From a bacterium (GTDB lineage: Bacteria > Hydrothermota > Tepidihabitantia > Tepidihabitantales > Tepidihabitantaceae): a stretch of DNA of 64,000 bases. Numbering within the stretch: position 1 is the stretch's first letter; the number at the start of each line of letters is the position of its first letter. The notes below the pieces were generated by a model that was not told the origin of the DNA, did no database searches, and saw only the letters and a program-made list of their open reading frames with translations. This document shows positions 45,887-60,225 of the stretch, in pieces. Location: assembly GCA_035505375.1 (NCBI GenBank), contig DATJQV010000004.1, positions 32,236 to 96,235 on the forward strand, given 5' to 3'. Both the position numbers and the translations under genes were made by a program.

Positions 45887-47203
45887 CTACGCGCCGACCT
45901 TTTGCAGCAACTCGGCAACGCTGCCAACCCAGAACCGCCGGTGCAGTTCGCTCGCCTTGGCGGCGTCGCTGTTGTAGCAGAAGGCTTGCACGCTGGCCGT
46001 TGCCCCCTCGTGAGCAATGCGGCGAGGCTTCCCTTTCTCTTCGAAGATGTGCCGGTAGCCATCCAGCTTCCAGTAGGTCTTCGTGTGCGCCATGCCCTTG
46101 GGGTCTACGAAGACTATGCGGTAGTCATCGCCTTTGATGAGCCAGAACACAAAGTCGGGCAGGAACCACGCGACCCGATTCTCCTCCGGGTTGTAGTAGG
46201 GAATACGCACTTCGTCTAATGACTCGTCTACCTTGCTGAACATCCACCAGTCGTACTCGTCGAAGCCGGTCCCGCCGTCGGCCAGATACTTCTCAAGCTC
46301 GCGGACGAACCGCACTTCGCTCGGCGTGCGAATCACGTGTTTGATGTAGTCGGCCCGCTCCTGCTCATCCAGCAAGACCGGCAGGTAGTAGTGATTCGGC
46401 ACAAGCTCAATACTGAGCTTCCGGCCCTCGTGGTCGAACTCGACCCTCTCCTTCATCCGCTCCAGAGCTTTCAGCCCAGCCTTGTACTGCGCCCTGGTAA
46501 TCTCGCCACGGTCGAGCTTCTCATCCAACTCGCGCTCTCGGTCCGGCTTTCGGGCAGCGTCGTGAACCGCGTCCACGTCGCCTTGGAGTTCGCTGACATC
46601 CTTGAGCGTCACCTGGACATTCAGGTAATGGCAGATCTCCTTGTCCAGCTCCTTCAGCCGGTCGAACTCCTGTGGCGCAATTCCGAAGTAGGCCAACACG
46701 CGCCGGGTCAGCATGTCCGGGTTCCGGTACTCGCGCGCGCCCTCCTTGAAGAACGTGCCCATCGGCGCGTTCACGCTCTCCTTGAGCATTCCCAGCAGCT
46801 TCGGTTCGGCCTCGTAGTTCGCCAGCAGCACGCGGTCGTCACCCAGATAGCCGACATACCGCTGCAGCAGGTCAAACTCGGGCCGCGTTACCTCGAACCC
46901 CGGCAACTCGCGCTGCTCTGCCATCAACCCGCTTGCGGTTCGATAGACCGGGATAAGCAACTGCCGCTTCCCGGCTTCCTCATTCCGGAACAGGGTCAAA
47001 GTCTGTCGTTCGCCGGCTCTGGCCTCATTCTTCAGGTGCTCAATCGCCTGCTGCAGGGCATCCCGGTTCGTACCCATCACAAACAGAGTCTCCAGCGCCT
47101 GCGCGTCATCCTGAATCTGCCCATAGACGCCTTCTGCAAGCAGTCCGGCGTTGTTGAGGAACTTCAGCCGCTGGCGTCTGCCTTGAAGCGGCTCAATCCT
47201 CAC
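45887..47203 (-). pseudogene. C-terminal half of a split Res-type restriction helicase-nuclease
   Basis: Starts abruptly at the helicase motif VI remnant: the codons before 47203 read VGRG, then VRIEPLQGRRQRL, with a stop four codons upstream inside repeat DNA. The rest is the C-terminal domain of large Res/DEAD subunits, including a probable PD-(D/E)xK nuclease site in LPDFVFWLIKGDDYRIVFVDPKG. About 438 residues from a GTG. Together with 47413-49023 it once formed one protein of about 1,000 residues; the motif V region and the residues before VGRG are missing. Unlikely to be active. Confidence 0.8.
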
Positions 47204-47412
47204 GCCCCGGCCGACCTACAAAGAGCATGCAGCAGGCAGTACACAGCATACAGGGCCGACCGCACCCGAAGATCCAGGAATCGCCTGTGTGCTGCATTCT
47301 GTATGCTGTCTGCTGTTCGCCGAGTCCCAGCCCTCATAGAAGCTGCGAGACCCCATGAGGAAAGGCTAAGGTTAAGGCTAAGGCCGAGCCGGTCTCAACC
47401 TCAACCTTGACC
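47204..47412. repeat. Repeat insert that cuts the res gene
   Basis: About 210 bp: an inverted family d element (AAGGCTAAGGTTAAGG / CTCAACCTTGACCTC) next to GCATACAGAATGCAGCACACAG and GCAGTACACAGCATACAGG words. It replaces about 50 codons of the helicase and introduces stops in both flanking frames. Confidence 0.8.
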
Positions 47413-49023
47413 TCAACCTGGCTCGTGGTGGCGCTCGTTCACCTCGTACCCGGCCAGCTCGTCCTTGAGCCAGCCCGAGACGTCGCCAATCTTAATCAGG
47501 GCAAACGGCCGCTCGCTGGTCTTGAGCTTGAACGCCAGTTCCTGCCGGTTCGAGGGCCTGACCAGGACCTCAATCTCACCCGGAGAACTCGCGTTGAACA
47601 CGAGCTTCAGCATGTCCTTCGGCTTCAGCCCGCGCAGCACGTCTTCCTGTACCGAAACCACGCTGTCGCTCTCGAACACCGGCGCAGGCCGCCGGCTCAG
47701 TTCGTCCAAGAGCTCCTTCTTCGCCGTCTGCCAGATGCTGTCCGCCACTTCGCCCTTTCCGGCCCGCTCCAGTTCCCGGAAGAACCGCTTCAGGTCCGCG
47801 TCCTCGGTATTCACGGAGTTGACCAGCGTCAGGAGCAGCGGCCGATGATACATCTTCGGTTGCTTCGTCCTCAACCGCTCGGCCAGCTTCGTGACATAGG
47901 CCAACAGCATCAGCGACTTGAGCACAATCTTCTGCTTCTCTTCGCCGGTATAGTCGTCCTGGTCCCGGAACGCTCGGAACTCCTGCTCAAGGATGGCGAT
48001 ATGCTTGCCGTACCCGGCCTGCGTGAACCGGGCCAGGTTAAAGTCACAGACCGTGGTCACGATGTCGCGTTCGTCGGTGAACGTGGCCGAGAAGTTGAAC
48101 AGAAAGCCATTGCGGGCGAGAATCGAATAGATGTGCTGGCGCTTGGAGTCTTCCTTGTCGCCCTTGTGCGCCTCGTCGAGCAGGACGTACCACTTCCCGT
48201 TGTCGTCGTAGTTGCGGAAGTCGATGATGCGTTCCTTCTGCTCGTCGCTCAGATTGTCCGACCGATAGTAGAAGACGGTCATCTCCCGCGCGCCAAACAG
48301 CGACGGGTTCTCGCGCTTCGCCTCAGCGTATTCCTTCAGTTCCCGCAGACGGATGTACAGGTCATTGCGCGAGGAGTTGAACTCCTGCACGTGGCGCTTG
48401 AGCTGCTCAATCAGGTCTTCCCGATGCGTCAGCACAAGGATATCATTTGGCGGAATCTCACCCGCCAGAATCAACCCGCGCAGGACCTCGATGAGCTTGA
48501 CCAGCACCAAGGTCTTGCCCGACCCGGTGGCCATCCAGAAGCACATCCGGTTGACGATGCTCTCAAACGTAATCTCGCCCGCTGTTCCGGTTCCCCCTCC
48601 AATTCTCCCTCTCCCTTGAGCCACATTCCCCCTCGCCCCGCTTGCGGGGAGAGGGTTGGGGTGAGGGGTTTCCAAGGGTGAGGGTGAGTTCAGGTCGTAG
48701 TACTCCTCAAGCAGCGCCCGGAGCTTCCGGACGAGCTTACCCACCTGCAGGTTCATCCCTGCCGGCAGCTCGTTCTCCTGATACCACTCGAAGAATCGCC
48801 GCTTCCGCTCCAGGTTCGCATCAAGGTTCTCGCCGCGCTGAAAGTCGCCGAAGTCCTCATAGTACTTCCACAAAGCAACCACCGCCGATGCGACGGCCTG
48901 CTGCTGGTAGTCCCAGAGCCGCTTCTGCCGCGAGAAGCTCTTCAGGTCAAACGAACTCCAGTTGGCGGGAAGGGATTGAAAGGCCTTGCCTTCGACCATC
49001 TCCTGAAGCAGAGTCCGAGCCAC
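47413..49023 (-). pseudogene. N-terminal half of a split Res-type restriction helicase
   Basis: 536 residues. An N-terminal region (MARTLLQEMVEG ... WSSFDLKSFSRQK) is followed by a helicase core: Walker A in WMATGSGKT (about 163-171), motif Ia VLTHREDLIEQL, DEAH box LLDEAHKG and motif III FSATF. It ends at EVNERHHEPG followed by a stop created by the repeat. Residues about 111-147 are a second, in-frame repeat insertion. The reading frame is otherwise intact, but without motif VI the ATPase should be dead. Its methyltransferase partner is also lost. Confidence 0.82.
48585..48690. repeat. CCCCTCACCC-type repeat inserted in frame in res
   Basis: CTCCCTCTCCCTTGAGCC, then CCCCGCTTGCGGGG (hairpin) and GAGAGGGTTGGGGTGAGG. 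The frame stays open, adding about 36 Gly/Pro/Ala-rich residues before the helicase core. A related hairpin stands at 15099-15146. Confidence 0.75.
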
Positions 49024-49026
49024 GGG

Positions 49027-50649
49027 CTAGTTCCTAGGCCGAGCCTTACGGCTGGGTCGGAGCTTGACGGTCTTGGCGTACTCTTCGAGTACTGGTATCT
49101 TTAGTAGTTCAACTCCGTATCCGAACCCCTTCAGTAGCCTCGCGGTGTTGTTCAGATTGACGCGTGAGAAGAACGGGAGCCGTGGCCTGCCTTCTGGAGC
49201 TTCGCTGATGATGGCATATACGATGGTGAAATCCGTCGGCCTTCCTTCTCCACTGAACATGTCGGCAAAGGGACCCGCAAGTTGCTTCCGCACTTTCTCC
49301 CTGAACGTCGAGTCCGTGCGAATGAGCTGGCCAGATACAAATCCTTGCGAGAACAGGTGGCTAAACACACTGGACTTCCCGTACAACTTCACGTGTACCA
49401 GTTCGCGGTCGATGGTGAGTAGATCGCAGACCTCAACCTGGCCGTGGCCTCCTCCGTGCGCGATCTTCTTCTTGTCGTCGAGCAGAACATAGCGTTTGGG
49501 ATCAGCAACCGCGACGCTTTCATTATAGGCACCTTCTCCGCCACCTTTGTACGGAGGAAGTGTGAGCTTCGACAACGGCAGACGGGAGTATGCGTCGTCC
49601 GTCCTGCTGACAAAGTCCTTCGCGACGCGGAACCACCGACCGTCATTGAGTATGTACTTGCCTCCCTGATGGTCTACCTCGGCGTAAAGGCACTTGAGTA
49701 CCGGCCAGCTCTTGAACACGCAGTTGTGGTCGGTGTCCGCACAAAAGACTCTTCTGCTGCGCATCAAGTCTAGTGTTACTGGCGGTTCAATCGCGGCGAG
49801 GAACCCCTGCATGGTTATGTCCGGCCGGATCGCCCCGTGGCTGCCGGAGAAAATGAAGCCAACCACGCTCGACCAATCGATGATCTCGGGAATCGATAAC
49901 CAAGCGTCTTCGTAGTCCCCTGCGGACAGTTTCGCGTCCAGAGTGGCTTCGAGGTCGCCAATTAGGGCCGCGCTCCTGACGAGCGAGATGTTGTTCACCC
50001 ACTGATGTTCCGTAGCACTCAGGTCTTCTTCGGACTTCTTGCGGTACTCGTTCAGCAAGTGGGGCAGGTCGGACAGGTCCGCTCTGACTTCAACAGACAG
50101 CGCATCGCTCCCAGTCATTCGACTGCCTAGGCCCGGATTCAGAGGTGTGCCAACGATCGCCTTCAGCATGTCTTGTTCAACGTCCAATCCGAATTGGTCC
50201 GCCGTCGTGGCTTGCCCTGCCTGGATACGCTTGTGACTCTGAATGGCATCCAAGGATTGTACGTCCACGCATCGAAAGGTGTTCTGATCGACGGCGTTGA
50301 GCGCGCATAGGAGACCGAACCGGTCCTCATGCACATCATCTCTCAGGAGGAATCGGCCTCCCTGGCCGAAAGTCAGCACGAACCACCTGCCCGCTGTCCT
50401 TGCCACGAAGGCCGCCGCAATGCTGGGAACCTTCAATGACTTGACATCCAAATGCTCCCGGAATAGCTTCGCCCATCTCGGAGGTTTCGCAGGCATGCGC
50501 TTGATGAAGAGTTGCCCCACATCCAGACCCGTCACACGCACATCAATGGGCGGCTCACATGACGCCACGTTCACGATCTGGTCTACTGCTTCGTGCGGGT
50601 GCTTCACCAGAAAGACGCTGAAATGATTCAGATCCTTTTCGGGTGCCAA
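49027..50649 (-). CDS. DUF6119 (TIGR04141) family sporadically distributed protein
   Basis: 540 residues matching the TIGR04141/DUF6119 family in size and pattern: HFSVFLVKHPHEAVD at the start, FVARTAGRWFVLTFGQG (about 82-98), RYVLLDDKKKI and a central HGGGHGQVEVCDLLT (about 381-395), and KLYGKSSVFSHLFSQGFVSGQLI (about 407-429). The function is unknown; the family is patchy and often found in defence islands. It sits 4 nt upstream of the res N-terminal half, with another res head just beyond its own 5' end, so it appears to have entered a res locus. Confidence 0.8.
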   Translation of the reverse strand: MAPEKDLNHFSVFLVKHPHEAVDQIVNVASCEPPIDVRVTGLDVGQLFIKRMPAKPPRWAKLFREHLDVKSLKVPSIAAAFVARTAGRWFVLTFGQGGRFLLRDDVHEDRFGLLCALNAVDQNTFRCVDVQSLDAIQSHKRIQAGQATTADQFGLDVEQDMLKAIVGTPLNPGLGSRMTGSDALSVEVRADLSDLPHLLNEYRKKSEEDLSATEHQWVNNISLVRSAALIGDLEATLDAKLSAGDYEDAWLSIPEIIDWSSVVGFIFSGSHGAIRPDITMQGFLAAIEPPVTLDLMRSRRVFCADTDHNCVFKSWPVLKCLYAEVDHQGGKYILNDGRWFRVAKDFVSRTDDAYSRLPLSKLTLPPYKGGGEGAYNESVAVADPKRYVLLDDKKKIAHGGGHGQVEVCDLLTIDRELVHVKLYGKSSVFSHLFSQGFVSGQLIRTDSTFREKVRKQLAGPFADMFSGEGRPTDFTIVYAIISEAPEGRPRLPFFSRVNLNNTARLLKGFGYGVELLKIPVLEEYAKTVKLRPSRKARPRN

Positions 50650-50696
50650 CCTACTCTACCCCCGAGACGTCCTCATCTTCATCTGCCACCTGCGGG

Positions 50697-50801
50697 TTTC
50701 TGCCGCGAGAGGCTCTTCAGGTCAAACGAACTCCATTTGGCCGTAAAGGGTTCGTAGGGCTTGGACTCAGCGACCATCCCCTGAAGCAGCGCCCGTGCCA
50801 T
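50697..50801 (-). pseudogene. Second, isolated res 5' fragment
   Basis: From the ATG at 50801 it reads MARALLQGMVAESKPYEPF then AKWSSFDLKSLSRQK, about 35 codons matching the start of the res gene at 49023 but with many differences. Then homology stops and stop codons follow. It is the head of a different res allele, not a recent copy. Confidence 0.75.
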
Positions 50802-50866
50802 TCACTACCGATTGCCGACTGCGCGCTTGCGGAGCCTACGCTCCTCCAACCTACTTGTCCGCATTC

Positions 50867-51589
50867 TCATGCTCCCGCTGTATCACGTCTTAGCAGTCGG
50901 TCTTGATGGCTCCTAATAGTCTCAGTGTTCGGTGCGGACCACCCGAAGTTCTGAAACAGGTAGACCGTAGCTGCGACAGCGTCCGCCTTCGAAGCCTGGA
51001 GAAGCTTGTCCGGCATATACTCCCGAGACTGAAAGTCAACTCGTTCTTGATTGCATCGATAGGTGCGCATGAAGGGAAGTCCGAGAGGTTCCTCAAGCCA
51101 CAGGACTCGATTCGCCGTATGACGCAGGCTTACGCTGATTCTGACGCCATTCGCGTAGATTCCTTCGCTGTCACGAGCGAGCCGGGAAGCGAACTCAAAG
51201 ATCTCGGTGAGTCTGTAGACCGCTCCAACGACGCTTAGGCGGCTTGCCTTTCCGTCTCCTCCAGTGGCAACTGCTGTGTCTGGTCTCCAATCCTCCCAGA
51301 GAGCAACGTAGTGGACGAACTGCCCGCTTTCGTACATTCGCCAGAACTCCTTGAACTCAAGCCAGTCTATCCAAGCTTCGCAGTAGGTCTTCTCAAGGCG
51401 AATTCCGGTGTCAGTATCCGTGTCCAACGGGTAGTGAGGATAATCCCACCCTCGCAAGTTGAGTGCATTCCTACGCACAATATCTTGGCAGTCACCAAGC
51501 GACTTGAGCTTTCGGGTCGCGGTCATCGGCTGGAAGTTCACGCGCCAATAGCCATGCGACTTGATTCTCTCGATCACTTGCCGATTCAC
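50867..51589 (-). CDS. Unknown protein, last gene of the ThiC-like operon
   Basis: 240 residues; the start overlaps the stop of the AlbA_2 gene by 4 nt. Mixed alpha/beta composition with many aromatic residues: DYPHYPLDTDTD, a WIDWLEFKEFWRMYESGQFVHY segment (about 74-95), a central helix (VYRLTEIFEFASRLARD) and a strand-rich C-terminal part. No transmembrane segment and no motif I can name. Its position directly behind an AlbA_2/Schlafen protein suggests the two proteins act together. It may be a sensor or effector of the system. Confidence 0.6.
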   Translation of the reverse strand: MNRQVIERIKSHGYWRVNFQPMTATRKLKSLGDCQDIVRRNALNLRGWDYPHYPLDTDTDTGIRLEKTYCEAWIDWLEFKEFWRMYESGQFVHYVALWEDWRPDTAVATGGDGKASRLSVVGAVYRLTEIFEFASRLARDSEGIYANGVRISVSLRHTANRVLWLEEPLGLPFMRTYRCNQERVDFQSREYMPDKLLQASKADAVAATVYLFQNFGWSAPNTETIRSHQDRLLRRDTAGA

Positions 51590-52155
51590 AAACCCTCCAA
51601 CTCATCATCCAGCATCTTCTTGGCACTCGGTTCTACGGCAAGGCCAAGCCCTTGAAGCCGATGCCACGATCGAATTGCGGCTCTCTCGACTACGTCGCGC
51701 ATATCATTGGAATTGGAGATCGGGGCACTCTCGACTCGCCGATCTCTGGTGCGGTAATATATGGATCCCACATGCGTCTTAGCGGACTCTTTGCAGCAGA
51801 TTACAGGTACTTCGTCAAAAGGCAGCACTTCGATGACGACATACTCTAGGCCTCCAGCGTCTTTCACACAATCAACTCGGAAACTGACGTGTGGGTCAGC
51901 GAAGGGGGAGATCTGGTCCCTCATCTCGTCCAGGACATAGCTCGCACTTTGATCTGGCGTCACTCCCTTGCGTACGAAATGACCTCTAGCATCCTGCTCG
52001 ACGCCGACAATGAGGAATCCACCGTCCTGCACGTTAGACAGCGCTAGTATATGCCTCACAAAGGTCAACACATTCCATTCAATAGGGGCCTTGAAGTCGA
52101 CGTGTTGCGTCTCTACTCCGCCCTCCAATATCCTCTCCAGTTCTCTGCTATTCAT
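51586..52155 (-). CDS. AlbA_2/Schlafen-type putative DNA-binding protein
   Basis: 189 residues from the ATG at 52155 (AGGAGCACG upstream; an open frame extends further but lies antisense to no support). The family pattern is clear: ETQHVDFKAPIEW (E-x-DFK), ALSNVQDGGFLIVGVEQD, and YYRTRDRRVESA with conserved Arg. AlbA_2 domains occur in Schlafen-like proteins, some of which are RNases and many of which belong to defence or regulatory loci. The C-terminal 40 residues are helical. It overlaps both neighbours. Confidence 0.78.
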   Translation of the reverse strand: MNSRELERILEGGVETQHVDFKAPIEWNVLTFVRHILALSNVQDGGFLIVGVEQDARGHFVRKGVTPDQSASYVLDEMRDQISPFADPHVSFRVDCVKDAGGLEYVVIEVLPFDEVPVICCKESAKTHVGSIYYRTRDRRVESAPISNSNDMRDVVERAAIRSWHRLQGLGLAVEPSAKKMLDDELEGL

Positions 52156-52828
52156 CGTGCTCCTTCGAGGCTGCTTGCCGACGCTTCGCCTTCCGCTTCT
52201 TCCCCGCGCGCGAGTCACCCTGCTTCTGAGAATCGGGCTCAGTACACTGGCCCTTCTTCTCCAGTGCCTCCACGCGCTCGCGCAGCGCCTGGATCTCATG
52301 GCTGAGTACACCCAAGTCAGCTTGGATGATGTTCGCGGTTGCATAGAGCGCTGGCAGAAGGGAATCGAACGTCGCGTACGCACCGAAAGGTGGATTGTGG
52401 ATTCTCTCCTCAGTCAGTCGTCCAGAGGCATCTAGACGGCGGACCTCTATCCCGTGATCGAGGCCGATATCCCTGTGCGGCAGATGCGCATGAAGGGCGC
52501 GCCAGCCCTGCAACACCATTGGCACCAGGCCGATCAACGAGGCGACTGCGCCCGCGATGTAGAGAATCTCCAACCCAGTCTCGTGTTCGACGACTATCAC
52601 ACTGGTCTTCCCCCGACCGAGAATGTAGCCCTTTTCGTACTGGTCGAGCTTGACTTCTGTGCAGTCCAGCCCGGCTTCGCGCTTCAGGACGTCAACCAGT
52701 TCCTGGTAGTCGCGATAAGCACCCGCAAACCCACGGAGCTTCAATGACACGACTTGCTCGGGCATCGCCGAGAGTTGCTGCGCGGCCGCCGCAAACCTGC
52801 GCTTGAATTGTTCTTCTCTGTGGTTCAT
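52148..52828 (-). CDS. Unknown protein with one hydrophobic segment and a coiled-coil tail
   Basis: 226 residues; the ATG overlaps the previous stop by 4 nt and has AAGGAACAGGA upstream. A soluble N-terminal domain (about 1-85; LKREAGLDCTEVKLDQYEKG) leads to a hydrophobic segment ILYIAGAVASLIGLVPMVL (about 89-107), then a strand-rich part and a coiled coil (about 162-193) with a strongly basic C-terminus (KKRKAKRRQ). It could anchor the complex at the membrane and bind nucleic acid through the tail. No family recognised. Confidence 0.58.
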   Translation of the reverse strand: MNHREEQFKRRFAAAAQQLSAMPEQVVSLKLRGFAGAYRDYQELVDVLKREAGLDCTEVKLDQYEKGYILGRGKTSVIVVEHETGLEILYIAGAVASLIGLVPMVLQGWRALHAHLPHRDIGLDHGIEVRRLDASGRLTEERIHNPPFGAYATFDSLLPALYATANIIQADLGVLSHEIQALRERVEALEKKGQCTEPDSQKQGDSRAGKKRKAKRRQAASKEHDE

Positions 52829-53418
52829 TCCTGTTCCTTCTTGGTCCTTTTCCTCTGCCCGGCCGGCAAGGCTGCGTTCGTCGGCTTCTGATGATGACCC
52901 GGCGAAGTGCTTGGAATCTCGTCGCCACGAGGGCCGTCACAAGCAGTGGGACATCGGCCGTTCGCCTGGTGCATGGGCGCGGCCTTACTTCCGATGGAAG
53001 TAACCTCCAGCGGGAACTTGGCCCAGTAAGACTGGTCTACATCCGGATAGAACCTGGACATGACTTCAACGAAGTGCCTGAGAGACCTGCTACACCTGCC
53101 CGGCAGCCGCCAAGCAACGCCATTATTCTCCAATTCCTCTTTGACGCTGTCCCAGGTCTTGGCGCGATCCAACGCTATAGCCATGAACTCGCTCTGTAGA
53201 GGTGTGAGCAAGTCCACGACCTTCGCCGGGACGCCAAGATTGCGTAGGGCATAGCCAGTGCATTGTACCACCTGCTGCGCCTCAATCTTGGTATCGTACC
53301 AACTCCCTCTCAGCCCGGCCGCGATCATCTCCCCGCATTCCACAAGAATGAAGTGAAATTGATGGCTCAGAGTGTTTCTCTCAGATGGAAACTCCTTGAT
53401 AAACTCGCTCAGCTTCAC
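52825..53418 (-). CDS. Unknown helical protein of the ThiC-like operon
   Basis: 197 residues from a GTG at 53418, 24 nt after the deaminase-like gene; no Shine-Dalgarno seen. The first 120 residues look alpha-helical (FIKEFPSERNTLSHQFHFI; ALRNLGVPAKVVDLLTPLQS). The C-terminal 60 residues are unstructured, Pro/Lys-rich and basic (KRKRTKKEQE). No motif recognised. Confidence 0.55.
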   Translation of the reverse strand: MKLSEFIKEFPSERNTLSHQFHFILVECGEMIAAGLRGSWYDTKIEAQQVVQCTGYALRNLGVPAKVVDLLTPLQSEFMAIALDRAKTWDSVKEELENNGVAWRLPGRCSRSLRHFVEVMSRFYPDVDQSYWAKFPLEVTSIGSKAAPMHQANGRCPTACDGPRGDEIPSTSPGHHQKPTNAALPAGQRKRTKKEQE

Positions 53419-53442
53419 GGTCGCGCCAAAAGGAGACGATGC

Positions 53443-53949
53443 CTAGCCCCGGCCTCGCCGGTGTCGAAGAAAGGACCTCAACTTGTGCGTCACACCCAGA
53501 TCGCGAGGGCCGAACGCGTGAGGAAGAAGCTCGCTGATCGTGGTCCGAAGGACTTGTGTCATGTCCTTGTTGGAGCATATCACTTCAGCATCCGTTCCCG
53601 CTACTTGAGATGCCTCTAAAATAACTTGGCGACAACGGCCGCATGGGGTAACCACCGTCCCTCTCTTTGACTCTGGCTTCCCACCGATAATCGCGATCGA
53701 TTCTATTCCGGCTTCACCGTCAGTATTCGCGGCCAGAATGGCCGCAACCTCGGCACAGACGCCTAGTCCGAAGGAGGCGTTCTCCATGAACGTACCAAGG
53801 TAGACCTTCCCAGTGCTCGTACGCACGGCAGCCCCCACCTGAAAGCCTGAGTATATGTTGTAGGCGTTCTTCATCACAGACCGCGCGGCTTTCAGCAGTC
53901 GCAGCTCGGATTTTGATAATCGGTCACATGAAACGTAGCCTTCACTCAT
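53443..53949 (-). CDS. Cytidine-deaminase-like protein of the ThiC-like operon
   Basis: 168 residues with the zinc-deaminase fold of the cytidine deaminase family: substrate loop NIYSGFQVGAAV (31-42), ENASFG, the zinc/proton-shuttle motif CAE (65-67, the free-nucleoside CDA form rather than HAE) and PCGRC (C103, C106). All catalytic residues are present, so it is probably active on a nucleoside or base. About 30 residues longer at the C-terminus than housekeeping CDA. AGGAGGAGAC precedes the start, which overlaps the stop of the GAF gene. Context suggests a specialised substrate rather than pyrimidine salvage (inference). Confidence 0.85.
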   Translation of the reverse strand: MSEGYVSCDRLSKSELRLLKAARSVMKNAYNIYSGFQVGAAVRTSTGKVYLGTFMENASFGLGVCAEVAAILAANTDGEAGIESIAIIGGKPESKRGTVVTPCGRCRQVILEASQVAGTDAEVICSNKDMTQVLRTTISELLPHAFGPRDLGVTHKLRSFLRHRRGRG

Positions 53950-54671
53950 CAGTCTCCTCCTGTTGCGGTAAGTATGTTAGCAATAATGTCAGCCCACTTC
54001 TGCGCAATGTGGCGCATCTCTTCTTCATCCTTAACTAGCTTGTCGACCTCAAGGATGCTGTCAAAGGCTATTACTCCCATCGGCGGCGACTTGCGATCCA
54101 AGGATCGCATCAGTGGCGCGGCTATCACGGTTCGAAGTTCAGGCAGGATGCCATCCCTGATCTCCGGGGGATACTGTTCCGTGTGCGTCGGTGGTAGACC
54201 TTCTATCACCACGCAACGGTTCTTGAAAGCCTTGCCCGTAATACCGAAGTCGAATGGCACAACGAGAGTGCGTTCGGGATCCGGTTCTGTATTGTAGGAG
54301 TATCGTGTCCATCGGGTCTGCGTCTTGGGGTCGTACATCGTGATGATGGCTCGTATGTGATGACGAGAATGTGGGTAGATTATCGACCTGCATGCAGCGG
54401 CCAGGATTTCCTGAATAATACGATCCCGGCCCGCCCGGAAGAGGCCTTGCTGGACTCCACCCAAGTAGTAGATGGTGAAGACGAGTGCAATGTCTGCTGC
54501 GAGAAGCACATTCCACCAGCCTAGCGACCATGCGCACGACAGCAGATTTCCGGTCCCCGTCTGCAGCACTGCTGCCGTTAGCAGATTCACGTAGACTCCC
54601 GAGAGAAGCGCAATCCCAAGGCTCGCGGCACCGGTGAGGAATCGCCTACGTCGTATGAGCCAGCTCCTCAT
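53949..54671 (-). CDS. Membrane protein with two TM segments and a GAF-like sensor domain
   Basis: 240 residues; the ATG overlaps the ThiC-like stop (ATGA). A basic start is followed by two hydrophobic segments (about 12-36 and 47-70), then a cytosolic GAF-type domain (about 80-237): IIQEILAAACRSI, IRAIITMYDPKTQTRWTRYS, GITGKAFKNR and RTVIAAPLM...MGVIAFDSI. GAF domains bind small molecules such as cyclic nucleotides or modified bases. Here it could sense the product of the ThiC-like or deaminase-like enzyme (inference). Confidence 0.78.
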   Translation of the reverse strand: MRSWLIRRRRFLTGAASLGIALLSGVYVNLLTAAVLQTGTGNLLSCAWSLGWWNVLLAADIALVFTIYYLGGVQQGLFRAGRDRIIQEILAAACRSIIYPHSRHHIRAIITMYDPKTQTRWTRYSYNTEPDPERTLVVPFDFGITGKAFKNRCVVIEGLPPTHTEQYPPEIRDGILPELRTVIAAPLMRSLDRKSPPMGVIAFDSILEVDKLVKDEEEMRHIAQKWADIIANILTATGGD

Positions 54672-55843
54672 CCCGGACCACCCTCTGACTTAGCTTGTCT
54701 TCCCGCCTTGATGCCGCAATGGGCACCGCACATGCTACACTGAATAGCTCCGTCTTCGAACGGGCGCCTACTCTCGAGCGCTAGCTTCGCGCCCTCTGGA
54801 TACACGGCGGCTCTCCAGTCGCCTCGACATCCCGACTGCCATCTCGTTCTTGACATCCTTCGGTCGAGATCCATATTTCCGAGCTTTGCGATTTCTCCGC
54901 AATGCACCGCTATCTTGGTGGCCACTATGGCTTCCCTCAGATCATCTAGGCTCGGTAGCCCGATGTGCTCCGCTCTACTCATGCACGTGACGGCGTCTGC
55001 GCCCGAGGCAACGCACACCGCCGTGGCAATAGCGCCAGAGATGTGGTCAAAACCCAGCGCGGCGTCAGTGGCCATTGGTAGTACCCTGTATGGAACTCCA
55101 AAGCAGAGTTGCTTGGTCCTGCCGACGTGGTAGGGAATCCGGTTGATTGCCACATGTCCCACGCCTTCGATCATAACGCTCACGCCCGCGTGAGTGGCGC
55201 GATCTACAAGAGTACTCATGGTCTGTGCCTCGGCTTCGGACAAAGCATCCCAATCATCGCACACCGAAGCTGTCCTAAAACTCGTGCCCAAAGAGAGAGT
55301 GACACTGTACTTGACGAATGAGTCCAGTAGCCGGTCAAACTCCTGGTAGTAGGGATTCTGAAGGCCGGTCTGGCGCATGTACGAAGAGACGATGCCGCCT
55401 CCCTTGCTTGTCGTGGGGATGATCCGGCGACAACCCCTGAGTAGGCCGAGGTGTTCCTTCAGGAAGGACGCATGGATGGTAATCATGTCGATCCCACGAC
55501 GGACTTGGGCCTCAACAATAGCTGCCGGCTCATCTGGTCGAACACTGCTGAGGTCTCCATCAGGGTGGCGGGCCGCCAGTTCGTAGCATGTCACTACGGA
55601 AACTGGTATGCTCAACTTCTCTACAAGTCTCACGTGAAAACCGGCAATGTCTCCCTCGAAGCTGTGGTCCGTCACGGCATCGACACCCAAGTCCTGCGCG
55701 GCATACGCCTTCTCGAACTCTACCTGTAAGTCATCAGCCGGCGTGGAACTGCCAACGCTCGCAATGACAAAGGTAGGTTGACCTTCACCACAGATGCGAG
55801 GCTGTATACCTCGCAGCTTGTTGCGCACAGAAAACGTCCGCAT
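54668..55843 (-). CDS. Divergent ThiC/BzaF-like radical SAM protein
   Basis: 391 residues. ThiC makes HMP-P from aminoimidazole ribotide; its paralogue BzaF makes 5-hydroxybenzimidazole from the same substrate. Shared landmarks: GVDAVTDHSFEGDI (54-66), GIDMITIHAS, VTLSLGTSFR (181-190; ThiC has SLGDGLRPG), SVMIEGVGHVAINRIP (222-237; ThiC EGPGHVP), TDAALGFDHISGAI (259-272), SRAEHIGLP (289-297; ThiC PAEHLGLP) and a C-terminal cluster motif with Cys369, Cys372 and Cys376 (CX2CX3C). The probable metal ligands H230 and H293 are kept, while several substrate-loop residues differ. Probably an active AIR-type rearrangement enzyme with a changed substrate or product. Confidence 0.82.
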   Translation of the reverse strand: MRTFSVRNKLRGIQPRICGEGQPTFVIASVGSSTPADDLQVEFEKAYAAQDLGVDAVTDHSFEGDIAGFHVRLVEKLSIPVSVVTCYELAARHPDGDLSSVRPDEPAAIVEAQVRRGIDMITIHASFLKEHLGLLRGCRRIIPTTSKGGGIVSSYMRQTGLQNPYYQEFDRLLDSFVKYSVTLSLGTSFRTASVCDDWDALSEAEAQTMSTLVDRATHAGVSVMIEGVGHVAINRIPYHVGRTKQLCFGVPYRVLPMATDAALGFDHISGAIATAVCVASGADAVTCMSRAEHIGLPSLDDLREAIVATKIAVHCGEIAKLGNMDLDRRMSRTRWQSGCRGDWRAAVYPEGAKLALESRRPFEDGAIQCSMCGAHCGIKAGRQAKSEGGPG

Positions 55844-55899
55844 TAGGCGAGTCTCGTCCTCGTTCTAGCCACTGCTGCTAAGCGCGAAGAGTCGAAAAA

Positions 55900-56229
55900 C
55901 TACGCCAGCCGCTCGTTTGCCGGGTCGAACGGAGGTGCTGTGACTATCAGGTATTTCAGTGACCCCGAGACCGAGTGCACTGTCCCCTTGCCAATTGCCA
56001 CCAGGTCGTACTTACCCACGTCATAGGTTTCATCTGCAACTCGAACCTTGCCGTGTCCTTCGAGTATGAAGTAGATCCTGTCGCTCTTCGCATTTGTGAC
56101 AGAAGGGTGATCCCCTTCAAGATTGGCTATTACACAGTCGAAGTTGAACCCCTTCCCATCAAACAGGTCCACTATGGTTAGGGCCTTGTCAACCCGCCTT
56201 ACAGAGGCGGAAGCAGCTGTACGTTTCAT
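55900..56229 (-). CDS. Small single-domain cupin protein
   Basis: 109 residues; AAAGGAGATAGC precedes the ATG. The cupin barrel is visible from about 25-100: RIYFILEGHGKVRVADETYDV (strand pair after motif 1, whose HxH is degenerate: SVTNAKSD) and YDLVAIGKGTVHSVSG (motif 2, His kept). Metal binding is doubtful because of the degenerate motif 1; it may bind a small molecule. First gene of the ThiC-like operon, 56 nt upstream of the ThiC-like gene. Confidence 0.75.
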   Translation of the reverse strand: MKRTAASASVRRVDKALTIVDLFDGKGFNFDCVIANLEGDHPSVTNAKSDRIYFILEGHGKVRVADETYDVGKYDLVAIGKGTVHSVSGSLKYLIVTAPPFDPANERLA

Positions 56230-56278
56230 GTTAGCTATCTCCTTTCTTCACTTGTGTCTGCATCCTCTATACTATGCG

Positions 56279-56289
56279 TAGGTAACCTA
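56279..56289. promoter_or_regulatory. Small palindrome upstream of the cupin gene, possible operator
   Basis: TAGGT-A-ACCTA, a perfect 11-bp palindrome 50 nt upstream of the cupin start. No clear -35 was found; TATAGA/TAGTAT words lie between it and the gene. Suggestive only. Confidence 0.3.
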
Positions 56290-56331
56290 TCCACGATCCG
56301 TCGCTCGGAGCAAGTCTGCCATTCTCCGCAG

Positions 56332-56517
56332 TCACCACCACACCATCGGCTTGATGAGCTTGAAGAACTCGAAGTCTTGTTTGGTCAGGTCGATGATCGT
56401 GCCGTCTTCGAACTCGACTGAGTCGGGTTTGATTCGGCGGATGCGCTTGCCGAGCAGGTTCGTGAGCGTCTCGGGCAGGTCGATGCCCTTGTACAACCGC
56501 GATAGGTCAACCTGCAC
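56332..56517 (-). CDS. Small unknown protein downstream of the DUF3732 ATPase
   Basis: 61 residues from a GTG, 12 nt after the ATPase gene. Sequence: a short helix (SRLYKGIDLPETLTNLLGK), then a beta hairpin with RRIKPDSVEFEDGTIIDLTK and an aromatic tail ending in Trp-Trp. No family recognised. It may be a genuine small component of the ABC three-component system or a truncated gene. Confidence 0.45.
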   Translation of the reverse strand: MQVDLSRLYKGIDLPETLTNLLGKRIRRIKPDSVEFEDGTIIDLTKQDFEFFKLIKPMVWW

Positions 56518-56529
56518 GTTGTTCTCCCG

Positions 56530-58503
56530 CTAGTCCAGCCACTCTTGCGGAACGAGCTTTCGTCCCTCACGCCATTCTTCGAAGGCGACTACGTTGGGTA
56601 TGTTGCCCCACACTTCGCGCGGCGCGTGATCCAGCACTATTACCTGTAGCCGGCCACCGCCGCTTCCAACCACATCACCCAACACTCTGAAGGCCTTGTG
56701 GACTGCAGCTATGTCTTCATCGCGAAGCTGCGGCTCCTGTAACTCGTCGTCCTCACGCACGACCAACTTCCTTGGGAAGTAAACTTGGCTCGGCTGATCC
56801 ATCACGACAAATCCTGGAACTGGACTGTGCTTCAACGTCAGAAAGAACTGCTGGAGACCTAGGAAAACCGCAATGTGGTAGGAAAGCCAATTGGAGCCAC
56901 TCCCGATTTCCGAAAGGTAGTCTTCGCGACTTGCGCCCGTCACCTTCACCGTCAAGTCGTCAATGTCGAGTGAAACGGGGTCTTCCGGGCGTTCACAATC
57001 AAGCATTGGGATGAGCCGAGCTGCGTTGTTGTTCACTATTTTGAGGGCGCGCCGCTTCCTTGCCTCCAAGTTCTGCCCGGCCAGTTCCTCCTGCAGGGCC
57101 GTCACTCTGGCCCGCAGTCCGCTGACCTCAGCACGGAGTTCGGCGTCCTCCCCGAGGCGACGGTGGAGTTGCAGGGCGTTCTCCAGATTCCCGACGAAAC
57201 GTTCTACCTTCTTTGCCTGGAACTGCTGTGTTCTTGCTTCATCTGATCGCTGTGACAGTGCGTCCTTGCGGATACGGATGGCTTTCAGTCTTTCCGTTAC
57301 ATCGCTCAACGCCGCCTGTACCCGTTCCGTCTCTCGCTCAAACGCGGCGGGGATATCCTGACTAGTGCCTGCTTCTTTCTCGATCCTGTGCAACGAGTCC
57401 ACCATCTCCGCCAGTCTAGCGCTGCTCGACTCCATGCGAGCGCCACATATCGGACAGTCCTCCTCCCCCGACGCGTGCTGACCAAGCCAGTCCGCGATCT
57501 GCAGCCGATCACGTTGGATGCGCAATGCATCGCCGTAGCTTGACGCGCTCTCCCTAATCCTGGTCATCTCAGTCAGTCTGCGGCGCAGCGCGGTTAGTTC
57601 GTGCGACACCGCTGTCTCCTCGTCCTCAAGTCCATTGAGTTCCTTTATTGCCGCAGAAACGGTACTCTGGCTAACGGCAATCGTGGCGTCTGTCTTCTTC
57701 ACCAGACCATCGAGTGCGTCGAGCATCTGGTCACGACTCAGCTCGCCATTCTCAGGAGGAGGGAGCAGACCGAGCTCGCGGGCTTCACTGACCTTGGCGC
57801 GTAACTCGCCCGTCCATTCTGCAGAGACGGCCTCGGCCTTCGTCAATTCACTCTCCTTCCGCCGAAGCTCGCGTCTGAGTCGACCTAGCTCATGCTGCTT
57901 GGCGAGAAGCGCTGGTGTGATTGCTCCAAGCACGTACGGGAATATACGCCGCAGTTTCTCGCGATGTTCGTAGTGGTCTGTCTTGAAGAATAGAACTTCC
58001 GGATTAGCCACCACGTTCTGTGGCTGAAACACTAAGGCCATTAGATCCCGGAAGCTTGGGCGAGCTTCGAAACCACCGGACTCGCCGCGCTCGGAGAAAT
58101 CAAGGTTCGAGAGACCGGCCACCTCATCTAGCAGATGTCTAACATTGTCGGCGGTTGTATTCTTCGTAATCTCGTCAGGTATCGCAGTTATCTCAGGCGC
58201 TTCGAGCAGGAACATGTCATCGGTACAGCGGTGTTCGCCTGGCTCAAGCCTCGCGAGCAACTTCTCTCCTGACTCGGTCTTGACAACGATGCCGAACCAT
58301 TGACAGGCATCCCGTATTGTCTTCACTGGAATGGAGCAACTACCCGCGCCCAGGCAATAGTCAATAATCGGAATCACGGCGGACTTGCCTGTCCTGGATG
58401 CGCCGCTGATCACGGTCACTTTGCCGAGCCCAAAAGGCAACCGGCGTGGAGGAAGAGACGGTTTGCGCGGCCAAAGGATGAGTTCCTTGAGCTGGAAGTA
58501 CAT
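56530..58503 (-). CDS. DUF3732 SMC/Rad50-like ATPase of an ABC three-component system
   Basis: 657 residues. Walker A GASRTGKS (34-41) with IPIIDYCLG behind it; a long coiled coil (about 195-520) interrupted by a zinc-hook-like CPIC pair (about 349-352); the ABC signature region SEIGSGSNWLSYHIAVFLGL (about 543-562); Walker B FVVMDQPSQVYFP (about 579-591); and the H-loop in VIVLDHAP. This is the DUF3732 pattern of predicted ABC-3C defence ATPases. The gene follows the middle component by 1 nt. It probably senses DNA or infection and licenses the effector. Confidence 0.88.
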   Translation of the reverse strand: MYFQLKELILWPRKPSLPPRRLPFGLGKVTVISGASRTGKSAVIPIIDYCLGAGSCSIPVKTIRDACQWFGIVVKTESGEKLLARLEPGEHRCTDDMFLLEAPEITAIPDEITKNTTADNVRHLLDEVAGLSNLDFSERGESGGFEARPSFRDLMALVFQPQNVVANPEVLFFKTDHYEHREKLRRIFPYVLGAITPALLAKQHELGRLRRELRRKESELTKAEAVSAEWTGELRAKVSEARELGLLPPPENGELSRDQMLDALDGLVKKTDATIAVSQSTVSAAIKELNGLEDEETAVSHELTALRRRLTEMTRIRESASSYGDALRIQRDRLQIADWLGQHASGEEDCPICGARMESSSARLAEMVDSLHRIEKEAGTSQDIPAAFERETERVQAALSDVTERLKAIRIRKDALSQRSDEARTQQFQAKKVERFVGNLENALQLHRRLGEDAELRAEVSGLRARVTALQEELAGQNLEARKRRALKIVNNNAARLIPMLDCERPEDPVSLDIDDLTVKVTGASREDYLSEIGSGSNWLSYHIAVFLGLQQFFLTLKHSPVPGFVVMDQPSQVYFPRKLVVREDDELQEPQLRDEDIAAVHKAFRVLGDVVGSGGGRLQVIVLDHAPREVWGNIPNVVAFEEWREGRKLVPQEWLD

Positions 58504-58504
58504 G

Positions 58505-59008
58505 TCAGAACCTCACTTTCAGTGTCGCCGCAACTTCGTGAATCGTCAGTCTGCCGCACCAAGCTCCGAGTCGTTCCGCGCTCTTCATCAGTCGACGAGT
58601 CTCTGGGGGCATCCCCGCTCCAGCGGGCGTCCGAGAGAGCGGTATCGCGGCGGCATCTGTGCTCAGGCCAATGAGATGCGCCATGAGTGCAATTCTTAGA
58701 GATTCCCGGGTAAGGGTCCTGAGTGCCGCGGCTCGATCATGCACAGCTAGCAGGACATCCTGCATTGAGTTCTCGGATTTTCCGAACTTGGTGGCAAAGG
58801 CCCGCAGTCCGGAAGCCCCCTGAGTGCTAGCGACAATTGACTCGGTTTGCTCGTGCAGCACGATCGGCAGAACGACAAACAGAAGTGGAAGTGGCACTGG
58901 CTCATGCGTCGGGTGTTCCTGTGTGTAGCCGCAGGCGAACCGCCAGAGCAACCCCGCGCCCAATGCGGGATTCTGCACATTTCGGGTCTCCTGGGCGAGA
59001 GTCTTCAT
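58505..59008 (-). CDS. ABC three-component system middle component
   Basis: 167 residues from the ATG at 59008, which overlaps the effector stop (ATGA). All-helical: NPALGAGLLWRFACGYTQ, a LLFVVLPIVLHEQT segment (about 43-56) and SLRIALMAHLIGLS, as in the middle-component families that bridge ATPase and effector in ABC-3C systems. The assignment relies on the helical pattern and on the position between an effector and a DUF3732 ATPase. Confidence 0.78.
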   Translation of the reverse strand: MKTLAQETRNVQNPALGAGLLWRFACGYTQEHPTHEPVPLPLLFVVLPIVLHEQTESIVASTQGASGLRAFATKFGKSENSMQDVLLAVHDRAAALRTLTRESLRIALMAHLIGLSTDAAAIPLSRTPAGAGMPPETRRLMKSAERLGAWCGRLTIHEVAATLKVRF

Positions 59009-60225
59009 GGTTGTCCGCCGGTTCTCTTCCTTGCCAGGGCGTTGCGGTAGTCGGGATGCCACCCTATGGACATGTCATCCGCCAAGCGGTGGAAGCAACC
59101 TGGGATGAAGTGATCTGGTGGTACCATTCCTTGCACCTGTGTTCGGTGCTGCATACATCCGGTGTATACAAACTGCCCCTGTTCGACCGGCGCTCTGTCG
59201 CGATGCTCGAGCAGCTTCTCCTGTTTGACGTTGCGCCACGTGCGGTGCAAAGCGTCGTCGAGGTCAATGAATGACTCCTCATGCACTTCGCCTGTCTTGC
59301 TCCAGTACGTTCTGTCATAGCACGCGCGAAGGTAATCGCTGATGGCCCCGAGTTTGTCCTCGTACCCCAACTCGATCATTTCGAGCTGCTGCACGAAATC
59401 CCTGGACATCTCTGCATCCTTCTCGTCTTCGGAGAACCTCGGTGCGAAACTCCTCAGTATTGTGTCCCTGTCTATTCTGGTCACGTATGCCGTGTACTCG
59501 CGGTGAAAGTCGTCTCGACTGATGACTGCGGGAACAGCCTTCTCGAGCCGCGAGTCAACCTGATGTTTGACCCAGCCGCAGAGCTTGTCTCGAACGTCAT
59601 GTACCCGGTTCGGGGAGATCGGGGCATTGGTCAGTAAGCCCTGAAGGTCGGCACTCGGGCTCGTGCTCGCACATTCGAGCCGAAACCCAACGATCATGGG
59701 AATGACGAGTTCCTCAGGGGCCGACAATACCGGGTCTACGAAGCGAGCCAGACCTGCCGGCAAACGCCTCCGAATCTCCTGGGTGGGCGGAGTTCCCCAG
59801 AGGCGGGTGCGCGCCGAGTCCAGGGCCGATCTCGCTTTCTCTGTGCTATTCGCGGCATGAAAGGAATCCACAATGTCGCCGCCCACTTGCCTTGATACGT
59901 ATATCTCAAACACCGTCTTCTTAGGGTCGATGTCGCCACGTTCGATGAGCTTGAGCCAATTGCACAGGGTCTTCCAGAATGGAATAGCTCGGTCGGAGAC
60001 GGGATTGTCACCAAGTGAACTCTTGGTCTGGACGAGTCTAGTCTCGCCATCAACCGATTGTTGTGCAACGTCGTCGAGCACCTCAAGACTGCAGTATGTC
60101 CCTACACCTGCCTGCAGAAGCAGTGCGGTAAGGCGGGTGTACTGGAGGCTGAACCCAAGGGCCTGTGCCGGGGCGACCGCGGGCACTTGCGGTGTCGCAG
60201 AAGACAAAGAGGTAGAGCCCTTCAT
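59005..60225 (-). CDS. ABC three-component system effector with DUF4297-like nuclease domain
   Basis: 406 residues. The N-terminal part contains LEVLDDVAQQ and, 15 or so residues on, ETRLVQTKSS (about 49-73), the E-x(n)-D-x(n)-QxK pattern of DUF4297/Cap4-like restriction-endonuclease-fold effectors. A helical linker follows, then a C-terminal domain (about 270-400) with YLRACYDRTYWSKTGEVHEESF and HRTWRNVK, resembling ABC-3C C-terminal domains. First gene of a three-gene operon with tight overlaps. Presumably degrades DNA when released by the ATPase. Weak Shine-Dalgarno. Confidence 0.78.
   Translation of the reverse strand: MKGSTSLSSATPQVPAVAPAQALGFSLQYTRLTALLLQAGVGTYCSLEVLDDVAQQSVDGETRLVQTKSSLGDNPVSDRAIPFWKTLCNWLKLIERGDIDPKKTVFEIYVSRQVGGDIVDSFHAANSTEKARSALDSARTRLWGTPPTQEIRRRLPAGLARFVDPVLSAPEELVIPMIVGFRLECASTSPSADLQGLLTNAPISPNRVHDVRDKLCGWVKHQVDSRLEKAVPAVISRDDFHREYTAYVTRIDRDTILRSFAPRFSEDEKDAEMSRDFVQQLEMIELGYEDKLGAISDYLRACYDRTYWSKTGEVHEESFIDLDDALHRTWRNVKQEKLLEHRDRAPVEQGQFVYTGCMQHRTQVQGMVPPDHFIPGCFHRLADDMSIGWHPDYRNALARKRTGGQP

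Follow-up and report, generated by a model that had tools for sequence, protein, structure and literature searches.

Eight genes lie on the minus strand between 50867 and 56229 of the window, the 64,000-nucleotide stretch of DNA analysed here, and they are real and present as the initial annotation described (Table 1). An island with low GC3 surrounds the operon. The neighbours of the operon in the window are LmuA/B/C-like and ResIII defence genes. Promoter and terminator scans of the operon gave matches at the shuffle level. A search of the genome for SSU rRNA found none.

Table 1. Genes of the minus-strand operon in the window
Gene product	Position	Strand	Remarks
Cupin, 109 aa	55900..56229	-	Core cassette gene; Cupin_2, 2.5e-5
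ThiC-like radical SAM protein, 391 aa	54668..55843	-	Core cassette gene; PF01964, 2.2e-90; base/ribose pocket altered
Two-TM GAF protein (2TM-GAF), 240 aa	53949..54671	-	Core cassette gene; predicted sensor/effector
Cytidine-deaminase (CDA) relative, 168 aa	53443..53949	-	Core cassette gene; dCMP_cyt_deam
Helical unknown, 197 aa	52825..53418	-	In operon; no family match in profile scans
One-TM coiled-coil-like unknown, 226 aa	52148..52828	-	Hydrophobic stretch around residue 88
AlbA_2/Schlafen-type protein, 189 aa	51586..52155	-	First gene of a separate pair; SLFN_AlbA_2, 5.7e-10
AlbA_2 partner, 240 aa	50867..51589	-	Second gene of the AlbA_2 pair

The eight genes had been proposed to be a unit with the AlbA_2 protein as its output, but they are probably not one system. 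Relatives of the AlbA_2 gene and of the last gene are paired in three other places, the genomes G039 and G041 and the Rhizobium plasmid CP140797. In each case a relative of the 240-aa partner (33–38% identity) is located beside an AlbA_2 relative, and no counterpart of the remaining six operon proteins, the ThiC-like protein included, was found at these sites. A single eight-gene unit was therefore rejected. As the pair is independent elsewhere, the AlbA_2 protein is probably a neighbour of the other genes, and the proposed output role is unsupported. The AlbA_2 protein shows a weak PADLOC match to PDC-S50 (3.1e-4), and the predicted model of its partner has a pLDDT of 60.5. For the helical and coil genes, no relative was found in plasmids or in the other 146 of the 147 genomes of the phylum.

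The cupin, ThiC-like, 2TM-GAF and CDA genes are found together at a second locus. In a MAG recorded as Chloroflexi (locus L004), relatives of the cupin (41% identity), the ThiC-like protein (54%), the 2TM-GAF protein (41%) and the CDA (49%) are adjacent, accompanied by a NUDIX gene and without AlbA_2. The gene order differs from that of the window. Thus, the association of the ThiC-like gene with the 2TM-GAF and CDA-like genes is conserved, as claimed. The expected co-occurrence of ThiC-like, CDA and AlbA_2 genes in the same order held for the first two genes, and failed for AlbA_2 and for the order. Four of the eight genes, not all eight, are kept together in L004. Linkage between ThiC-like and CDA genes was also inferred indirectly, from equal contig sizes. 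Nine of the 85 ThiC-clade clusters (P0047, whose size is missing, was left out) have a contig of exactly the same size and from the same data source as one of 120 CDA relatives, and the nine include the L004 cassette itself. The control gave 0–2 matches per shift, 8 in total over 20 shifts. For ordinary ThiC there was one match in 34, with no common source, where P0094 was counted as ordinary, as in the residue table, although its residues and the tree place it in the divergent clade. A single 5,214-base contig is common to relatives of the ThiC-like, GAF and CDA proteins.

These results bear on the idea that chance brought the eight genes together as cargo in an acquired island, with the ThiC-like protein and the CDA acting unrelatedly. 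The mobility of the AlbA_2 pair on its own, the helical and coil genes without relatives found and the low GC3 of the island would fit such a chance assembly. However, the adjacency of four genes in L004 in another order, and the equal-size contig matches above the controls, are not what it predicts, and we consider it improbable. The four-gene cassette itself was likely acquired by horizontal transfer. Viral contigs gave no relative of the ThiC-clade protein or the GAF protein. No report of such a cassette was found in the literature searched, which is not proof of its absence from print.

The ThiC-like protein falls within a rare clade that has strong support (100/99). For the clade and residue signature, the motif filter yielded an ORF at 87 of 104 loci; 10 of 79 loci, matching at 29–37% identity, lie outside this ORF reading. 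The residue table covers rows longer than 360 aa (which removed P0054 among P0001–P0059), and the roles of residues in ThiC (SAM, metal, phosphate, base and ribose) were taken from excerpts of PMC4389238 and PMC11117688. G230, H322, S342, G344, R386, E422, H426, E489 and H490 are kept in all 58 clade rows, and Y286 is kept in 57 with one gap. At R343, which belongs with the SAM, metal and phosphate residues, Lys is present in 58/58. Y449 is replaced by Arg in 58/58, D383 by Thr in 52/58, N228 by Ser in 55/58 and L259 by His in 55/58, and Cys is present at position 483 in 0/58. None of N228, D383, Y449 and C483, which are contacts or catalytic residues of the AIR rearrangement, is kept in any clade row. 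In other words, the clade retains the residues with which ThiC holds SAM, the second metal and the phosphate of its substrate, but not those touching the base and the 3' hydroxyl. The enzyme is thus divergent, as the initial annotation proposed, in both its separate clade and its replaced base- and ribose-contact residues. The C-terminal cluster motif is CX2CX3C (CSMCGAHC), shared with ThiC together with the fold family. A damaged cluster motif was considered and rejected, as the ordinary ThiC proteins P0087–P0120 have CX2CX3C too.

Excerpts of PMC11117688 report no HMP-P from D383A, N228D or C474S (Caulobacter numbering, corresponding to the C483 site) as single mutants, and some remaining activity for D383N. 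The clade replacements (Thr, Asn or Ser at 383 and Ser at 228) differ from the published mutants. Besides the ThiC-like gene, two ordinary ThiC genes are present in the host genome. As mutants at three of the replaced sites gave no HMP-P and the host is so supplied, HMP-P synthesis by the ThiC-like protein appears unlikely. In the MAGs of L004 and L005 (G100 and G101), no second ThiC-family gene was found at E <= 1e-60; the redundancy argument against a thiamine role therefore does not apply there. The ThiC-like gene is located outside a thiamine operon in all three clade loci read (the window, L004 and L005), as had been claimed. No Rfam TPP riboswitch match was found at 49–61 kb of the window, and the fetched stretches of ordinary thiC genes were equally without a match. 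The NCBIfam ThiC scores of the protein are 310.5, 266.6 and 187.2 bits against cut-offs of 410, 460 and 650. BzaF and BzaB, the anaerobic B12 lower-ligand enzymes, are also ThiC-family paralogues, and BzaF acts on AIR (excerpts of PMC11117688). The BzaB model (TIGR04386), however, gives 252.1 bits, under its cut-off of 700. A spare enzyme for thiamine (HMP-P) or the B12 lower ligand would agree with the Pfam family, with the names of the relatives and with the finding of no second ThiC-family gene in G100 and G101 at that threshold. In view of the four cut-offs, the replaced sites and the two ordinary ThiC genes of the host, we regard it as very improbable. Clade proteins, where named by the sources, are labelled phosphomethylpyrimidine synthase, and are therefore hidden among thiamine genes.

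The CDA relative scores 114.9 bits with TIGR01354, just above the cut-off of 113.65. The motifs CAE and PCGxCRQ, for the zinc and the proton shuttle, are intact in 121 of 121 rows including that of the window (PCGRCRQ). In the CDA tree, the ThiC-linked CDAs are ungrouped (10 label changes against a shuffled mean of 9.8), indicating that the CDA is no cassette-specific type. A CDA relative in Sphingomonas adjoins ordinary genes. The 2TM-GAF family has 11 members including the window protein. Its GAF fold was confirmed by an AlphaFold model and fold match, and two membrane helices are predicted. The fold matches include cAMP/cGMP-binding GAF domains, and non-nucleotide GAF domains match equally well. 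A distant GAF relative in the genome G254 (E 1.5e-10) has no cassette around it. No PADLOC model matches any cassette gene.

The third clade locus, L005, has no CDA, GAF or cupin gene within its 12.9 kb. Its clade member shares a gene cluster with genes of the SHMT-like, carbamoyltransferase, PALP, SerRS, SPASM radical SAM and methyltransferase kinds. By description (excerpts of PMC9032320), these kinds resemble AbmH, AbmE, AbmD, AbmK, AbmJ and AbmI, and the cluster resembles that of the nucleoside antibiotic albomycin. AbmM of albomycin is likewise described as using radical SAM chemistry to remodel a furanose; the likeness is one of description, and no kinship is claimed. The cluster of L005, with a Streptomyces clade member (P0021, Streptomyces sp. 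NPDC005820), would fit a small nucleoside-antibiotic-like pathway serving competition, not phage defence. The ThiC-like enzyme would build a toxic nucleoside, the CDA (and the NUDIX protein in L004) would tailor or detoxify it, and the GAF protein would regulate its production. However, the window cassette has none of the albomycin partner genes among the genes scanned, no transporter, carrier or peptide-assembly gene is present among those scanned at the window and L004, and the conserved membrane GAF protein suits sensing better. We consider such a pathway possible but unlikely.

We prefer the reading that the four-gene cassette makes an unusual nucleotide and senses it at the membrane, and give it a probability of roughly 0.45. 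The ThiC-like enzyme would bind a 5'-phosphorylated nucleotide. The 5'-deoxyadenosyl radical would abstract H5', and the sugar would be opened or remodelled without the ring expansion to HMP-P. The deaminase may convert a 4-amino-pyrimidine form of the substrate or product to the 4-oxo form, and the cupin may assist or regulate. The GAF domain would bind the product, and the binding would be passed to the two membrane helices, resulting in membrane disturbance or an onward signal. Two-TM effectors act in this manner in nucleotide-signalling immunity. The AlbA_2 pair, as a separate neighbour, would take no part. CBASS and Pycsar would work alike, with an enzyme-made nucleotide and a two-TM effector; the window differs in having a ThiC-family enzyme and no nucleotide cyclase among the 16 genes scanned. 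Prokaryotic viperin likewise remodels nucleotides by radical SAM chemistry in immunity. Viperin has an N-terminal CX3CX2C radical SAM domain, whereas the window enzyme belongs to the ThiC family with its C-terminal motif and has no viperin match in Pfam or PADLOC.

A defence role, perhaps against viruses, is suggested by the gene neighbourhood only, namely the defence genes beside the window cassette and the toxin-antitoxin-type genes around L004. A more specific proposal, which we consider rather unlikely, is a new form of immune signalling: a third functional class of the ThiC family would make a non-cyclic, sugar-remodelled pyrimidine nucleotide as second messenger, the CDA would set or end the signal, and the two-TM GAF receptor would open or disrupt the membrane. 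In AvcID phage defence, a (deoxy)cytidine-type deaminase is also found in a defence setting (PMC10511110). AvcD, however, is a toxin that deaminates deoxycytidylate and is paired with an RNA antitoxin, whereas the window has a short CDA beside a ThiC-like enzyme. The CDA, NUDIX and cupin gene kinds would also suit a unit for detoxification or salvage, removing nucleosides that are damaged or foreign, in which the ThiC-like enzyme cleaves an odd nucleotide and the GAF protein senses. As a radical SAM enzyme is costly and unusual for clearance, and defence and toxin-antitoxin-type genes are nearby, such a unit is quite improbable. According to the authors of PMC11117688, no enzyme identified so far catalyses a more complex radical cascade than ThiC. 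A third conserved ThiC-family class, which has an altered substrate pocket, is linked to a deaminase and a membrane GAF protein, and also occurs in a cluster of the antibiotic type, points to a nucleotide from radical chemistry that is as yet undescribed. If the immune-signalling proposal is true, the radical chemistry used to make vitamin B1 would also underlie a signalling pathway. Among the other loci, Type I RM genes in L102 and a methylase in L103 were named by eye, without a family scan.

As the initial annotation had described, positions 50867-56229 are filled by eight intact minus-strand ORFs, which overlap by 1-8 nt or are separated by short gaps, here measured as 24 and 56 nt. One flank is an ABC-3C/Lamassu-like set (LmuA, MC3, LmuB), and the other consists of a DUF6119 gene and, beyond it, a ResIII protein; the string lies among defence-type genes, as first proposed. 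The 536-aa ResIII protein and the neighbouring 438-aa ORF may be two parts of a single Res gene. The GC3 of 12 genes at 49027-60225 is 0.58-0.70, below that of 23 outside ORFs of at least 300 aa (0.67-0.88; Mann-Whitney p 3.5e-6). Therefore, this stretch was probably acquired.

Table. Features located in the window and in outside loci
Feature	Position	Remarks
Complete ABC-3C/Lamassu-like set: LmuA with CTD7, MC3/LmuC, LmuB with DUF3732	window 56530-60225	family matches
ResIII protein (536 aa), adjoining 438-aa ORF without Pfam match, DUF6119 protein	window 45887-50649	
AlbA_2 and 240-aa unknown, recurring two-gene module	window 50867-52155; L102:8437-9707; L103:7494-8835; L101:8001-9276	
Group II intron domain RF02001	L002:2421-2560 (G000 contig C76)	beside second ordinary ThiC copy of host genome

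The ThiC-like protein of the string matches PF01964 at 2.2e-90, and is below all four NCBIfam cut-offs, ThiC and BzaB. In a 59-row tree, its clade (42 rows) is set apart from ordinary ThiC and the methanogen paralogues with support of 100/99; long branches are seen for three of its rows (P0085, P0086, P0094). Residues of 58 clade proteins were mapped onto the sites described for Arabidopsis ThiC (PMC4389238, PMC11117688). G230, H322, S342, G344, R386, E422, H426, E489 and H490 are kept in all 58 proteins, and Y286 in 57, with one gap. R343 is invariably replaced by Lys, and Y449, described in these papers as stacking against the amine of AIR, by Arg (58/58). C483 is Cys in none (Thr 53, Leu 4, Ser 1), and replacements are also found at D383 (Thr 52, Asn 3, Ser 3), N228 (Ser 55, Gly 2, Ala 1) and L259 (His 55, Asn 3). 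Among 87 ORFs from the genome loci, 7 rows belong to the clade and represent three genes, some of them present in more than one row. In the remaining 80, C483 is always conserved, and site 449 is occupied by Tyr (56) or Phe (24), never by Arg. These changed residues, the separate clade and the NCBIfam results uphold the earlier assignment of a divergent ThiC-like enzyme. According to PMC11117688, each of the substitutions D383A, N228D and C474S (Caulobacter numbering), made singly, abolished detectable HMP-P formation, and D383N left some activity. From the kept and replaced residues and these mutants, the enzyme is expected to retain the use of SAM and the binding of a 5'-phosphate, and HMP-P synthesis is unlikely.

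Two further ThiC genes of the host genome are of the ordinary kind, and their residues are canonical over the parts covered. Counting on the other side, no second ThiC-family gene was found at E <= 1e-60 in the MAGs of L004 and L005, the outside loci with a clade member; thus, thiamine redundancy is no argument there. Methanogen ThiC paralogues (L031, L041, L044, L050, L056 and others) show a second signature, K343, N383 and F449 with the Cys kept, and a further function within the family is possible.

Scanning genome contigs with a 41-row clade alignment gave 79 ThiC-family loci. Among the 69 readable by residue signature, only L004 and L005 have that of the clade; the remaining 10 are matches at 29-37% identity. 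In L004 (labelled a Chloroflexi MAG), the gene order is ThiC, GAF, CDA and cupin, then a NUDIX gene, and the identities to the window proteins are 54, 41, 49 and 41%, respectively. The cupin gene is first in the window and last of the four in L004, indicating that the order changed and the set was kept. Helical, coil, AlbA_2 and 240-aa proteins have no relative on the 10,988-base contig of L004. Thus, of the eight genes first taken as one unit, four are adjacent elsewhere, and we regard these four as a real and conserved cassette centred on a third class of the ThiC family. Upstream in L004, an HTH and peptidase M78 pair occurs twice, with PADLOC matches RmrA and PD-Lambda-2_B; these genes are of toxin-antitoxin or defence type.

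Linkage was also inferred indirectly, from exact matches in the length of the longest contig per protein cluster. Nine of 85 ThiC-clade clusters match one of the 120 CDA relatives listed, each pair also having a common data source. With the lengths offset by 1-10 bases in both directions, each of the 20 offsets produced 0-2 matches (8 in total), and rows taken as ordinary ThiC gave 1/34, without shared source. The 48,153-base match corresponds to the L004 cassette, as P0033 and L004 coincide in the tree. Two of 11 GAF family members (one being the window's own) match a ThiC-clade cluster, and a length of 5,214 bases is common to ThiC, GAF and CDA relatives. Equal lengths are good but indirect evidence for ThiC-CDA-GAF linkage. 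The ThiC-linked CDAs are scattered on a tree of 121 CDA rows, which counts against a tight ThiC-CDA partnership.

At E <= 1e-105, the clade was detected in 1/147 genomes of the host's phylum, 1/400 drawn from that of L004 and 1/45 of that of L005, in each case the known genome itself. No clade member was found in viral contigs; the best among the matches listed are 37% (plasmid) and 34% (phage) identical, the level of ordinary ThiC. The patchy spread across distant taxa fits horizontal transfer. One member, P0021, is on a 233-kb contig of Streptomyces sp. NPDC005820.

In L005 (labelled a delta proteobacterium MAG), the clade member is accompanied by GNAT, SHMT-like, carbamoyltransferase, PALP, esterase, SerRS, SPASM radical SAM, TauD and methyltransferase genes, and L005:973-12914 is likely a nucleoside-antibiotic cluster. 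Nearest in PDB are cytosylglucuronate decarboxylase (2.3e-8) for the radical SAM protein, and 7k34, named threonine aldolase, for the SHMT-like protein. The gene kinds match those described for albomycin (PMC9032320). In that pathway, AbmM swaps oxygen for sulfur in thiofuranose building (PMC12691670), and ThiC begins with H5' abstraction and C4'-O cleavage (PMC11117688). Because of these analogies, we guess that the clade enzyme might remodel the sugar of a pyrimidine nucleotide. The main rival for the window cassette is an antibiotic-like pathway. Our best reading is that the cassette makes and senses a nucleotide, and an antiviral function is plausible.

The co-occurrence expected of ThiC, CDA and AlbA_2 is supported for ThiC with CDA (by the nine length matches, one of which is L004); AlbA_2 has no relative on the L004 contig and recurs as a separate, adjacent pair with the 240-aa protein. 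For the helical and coil genes, searches of plasmids and of the remaining 146 of the phylum's 147 genomes yielded no relative. The AlbA_2 pair is accompanied in G039 by an AbiJ_NTD4 protein and type I RM genes (RM named by eye), follows an apparent DNA methylase in G041 (named by eye), and also occurs on Rhizobium beringeri plasmid CP140797; these stretches hold no relative of the other six window proteins. The module, near RM or methylase-like genes, is undescribed as far as family scans reach.
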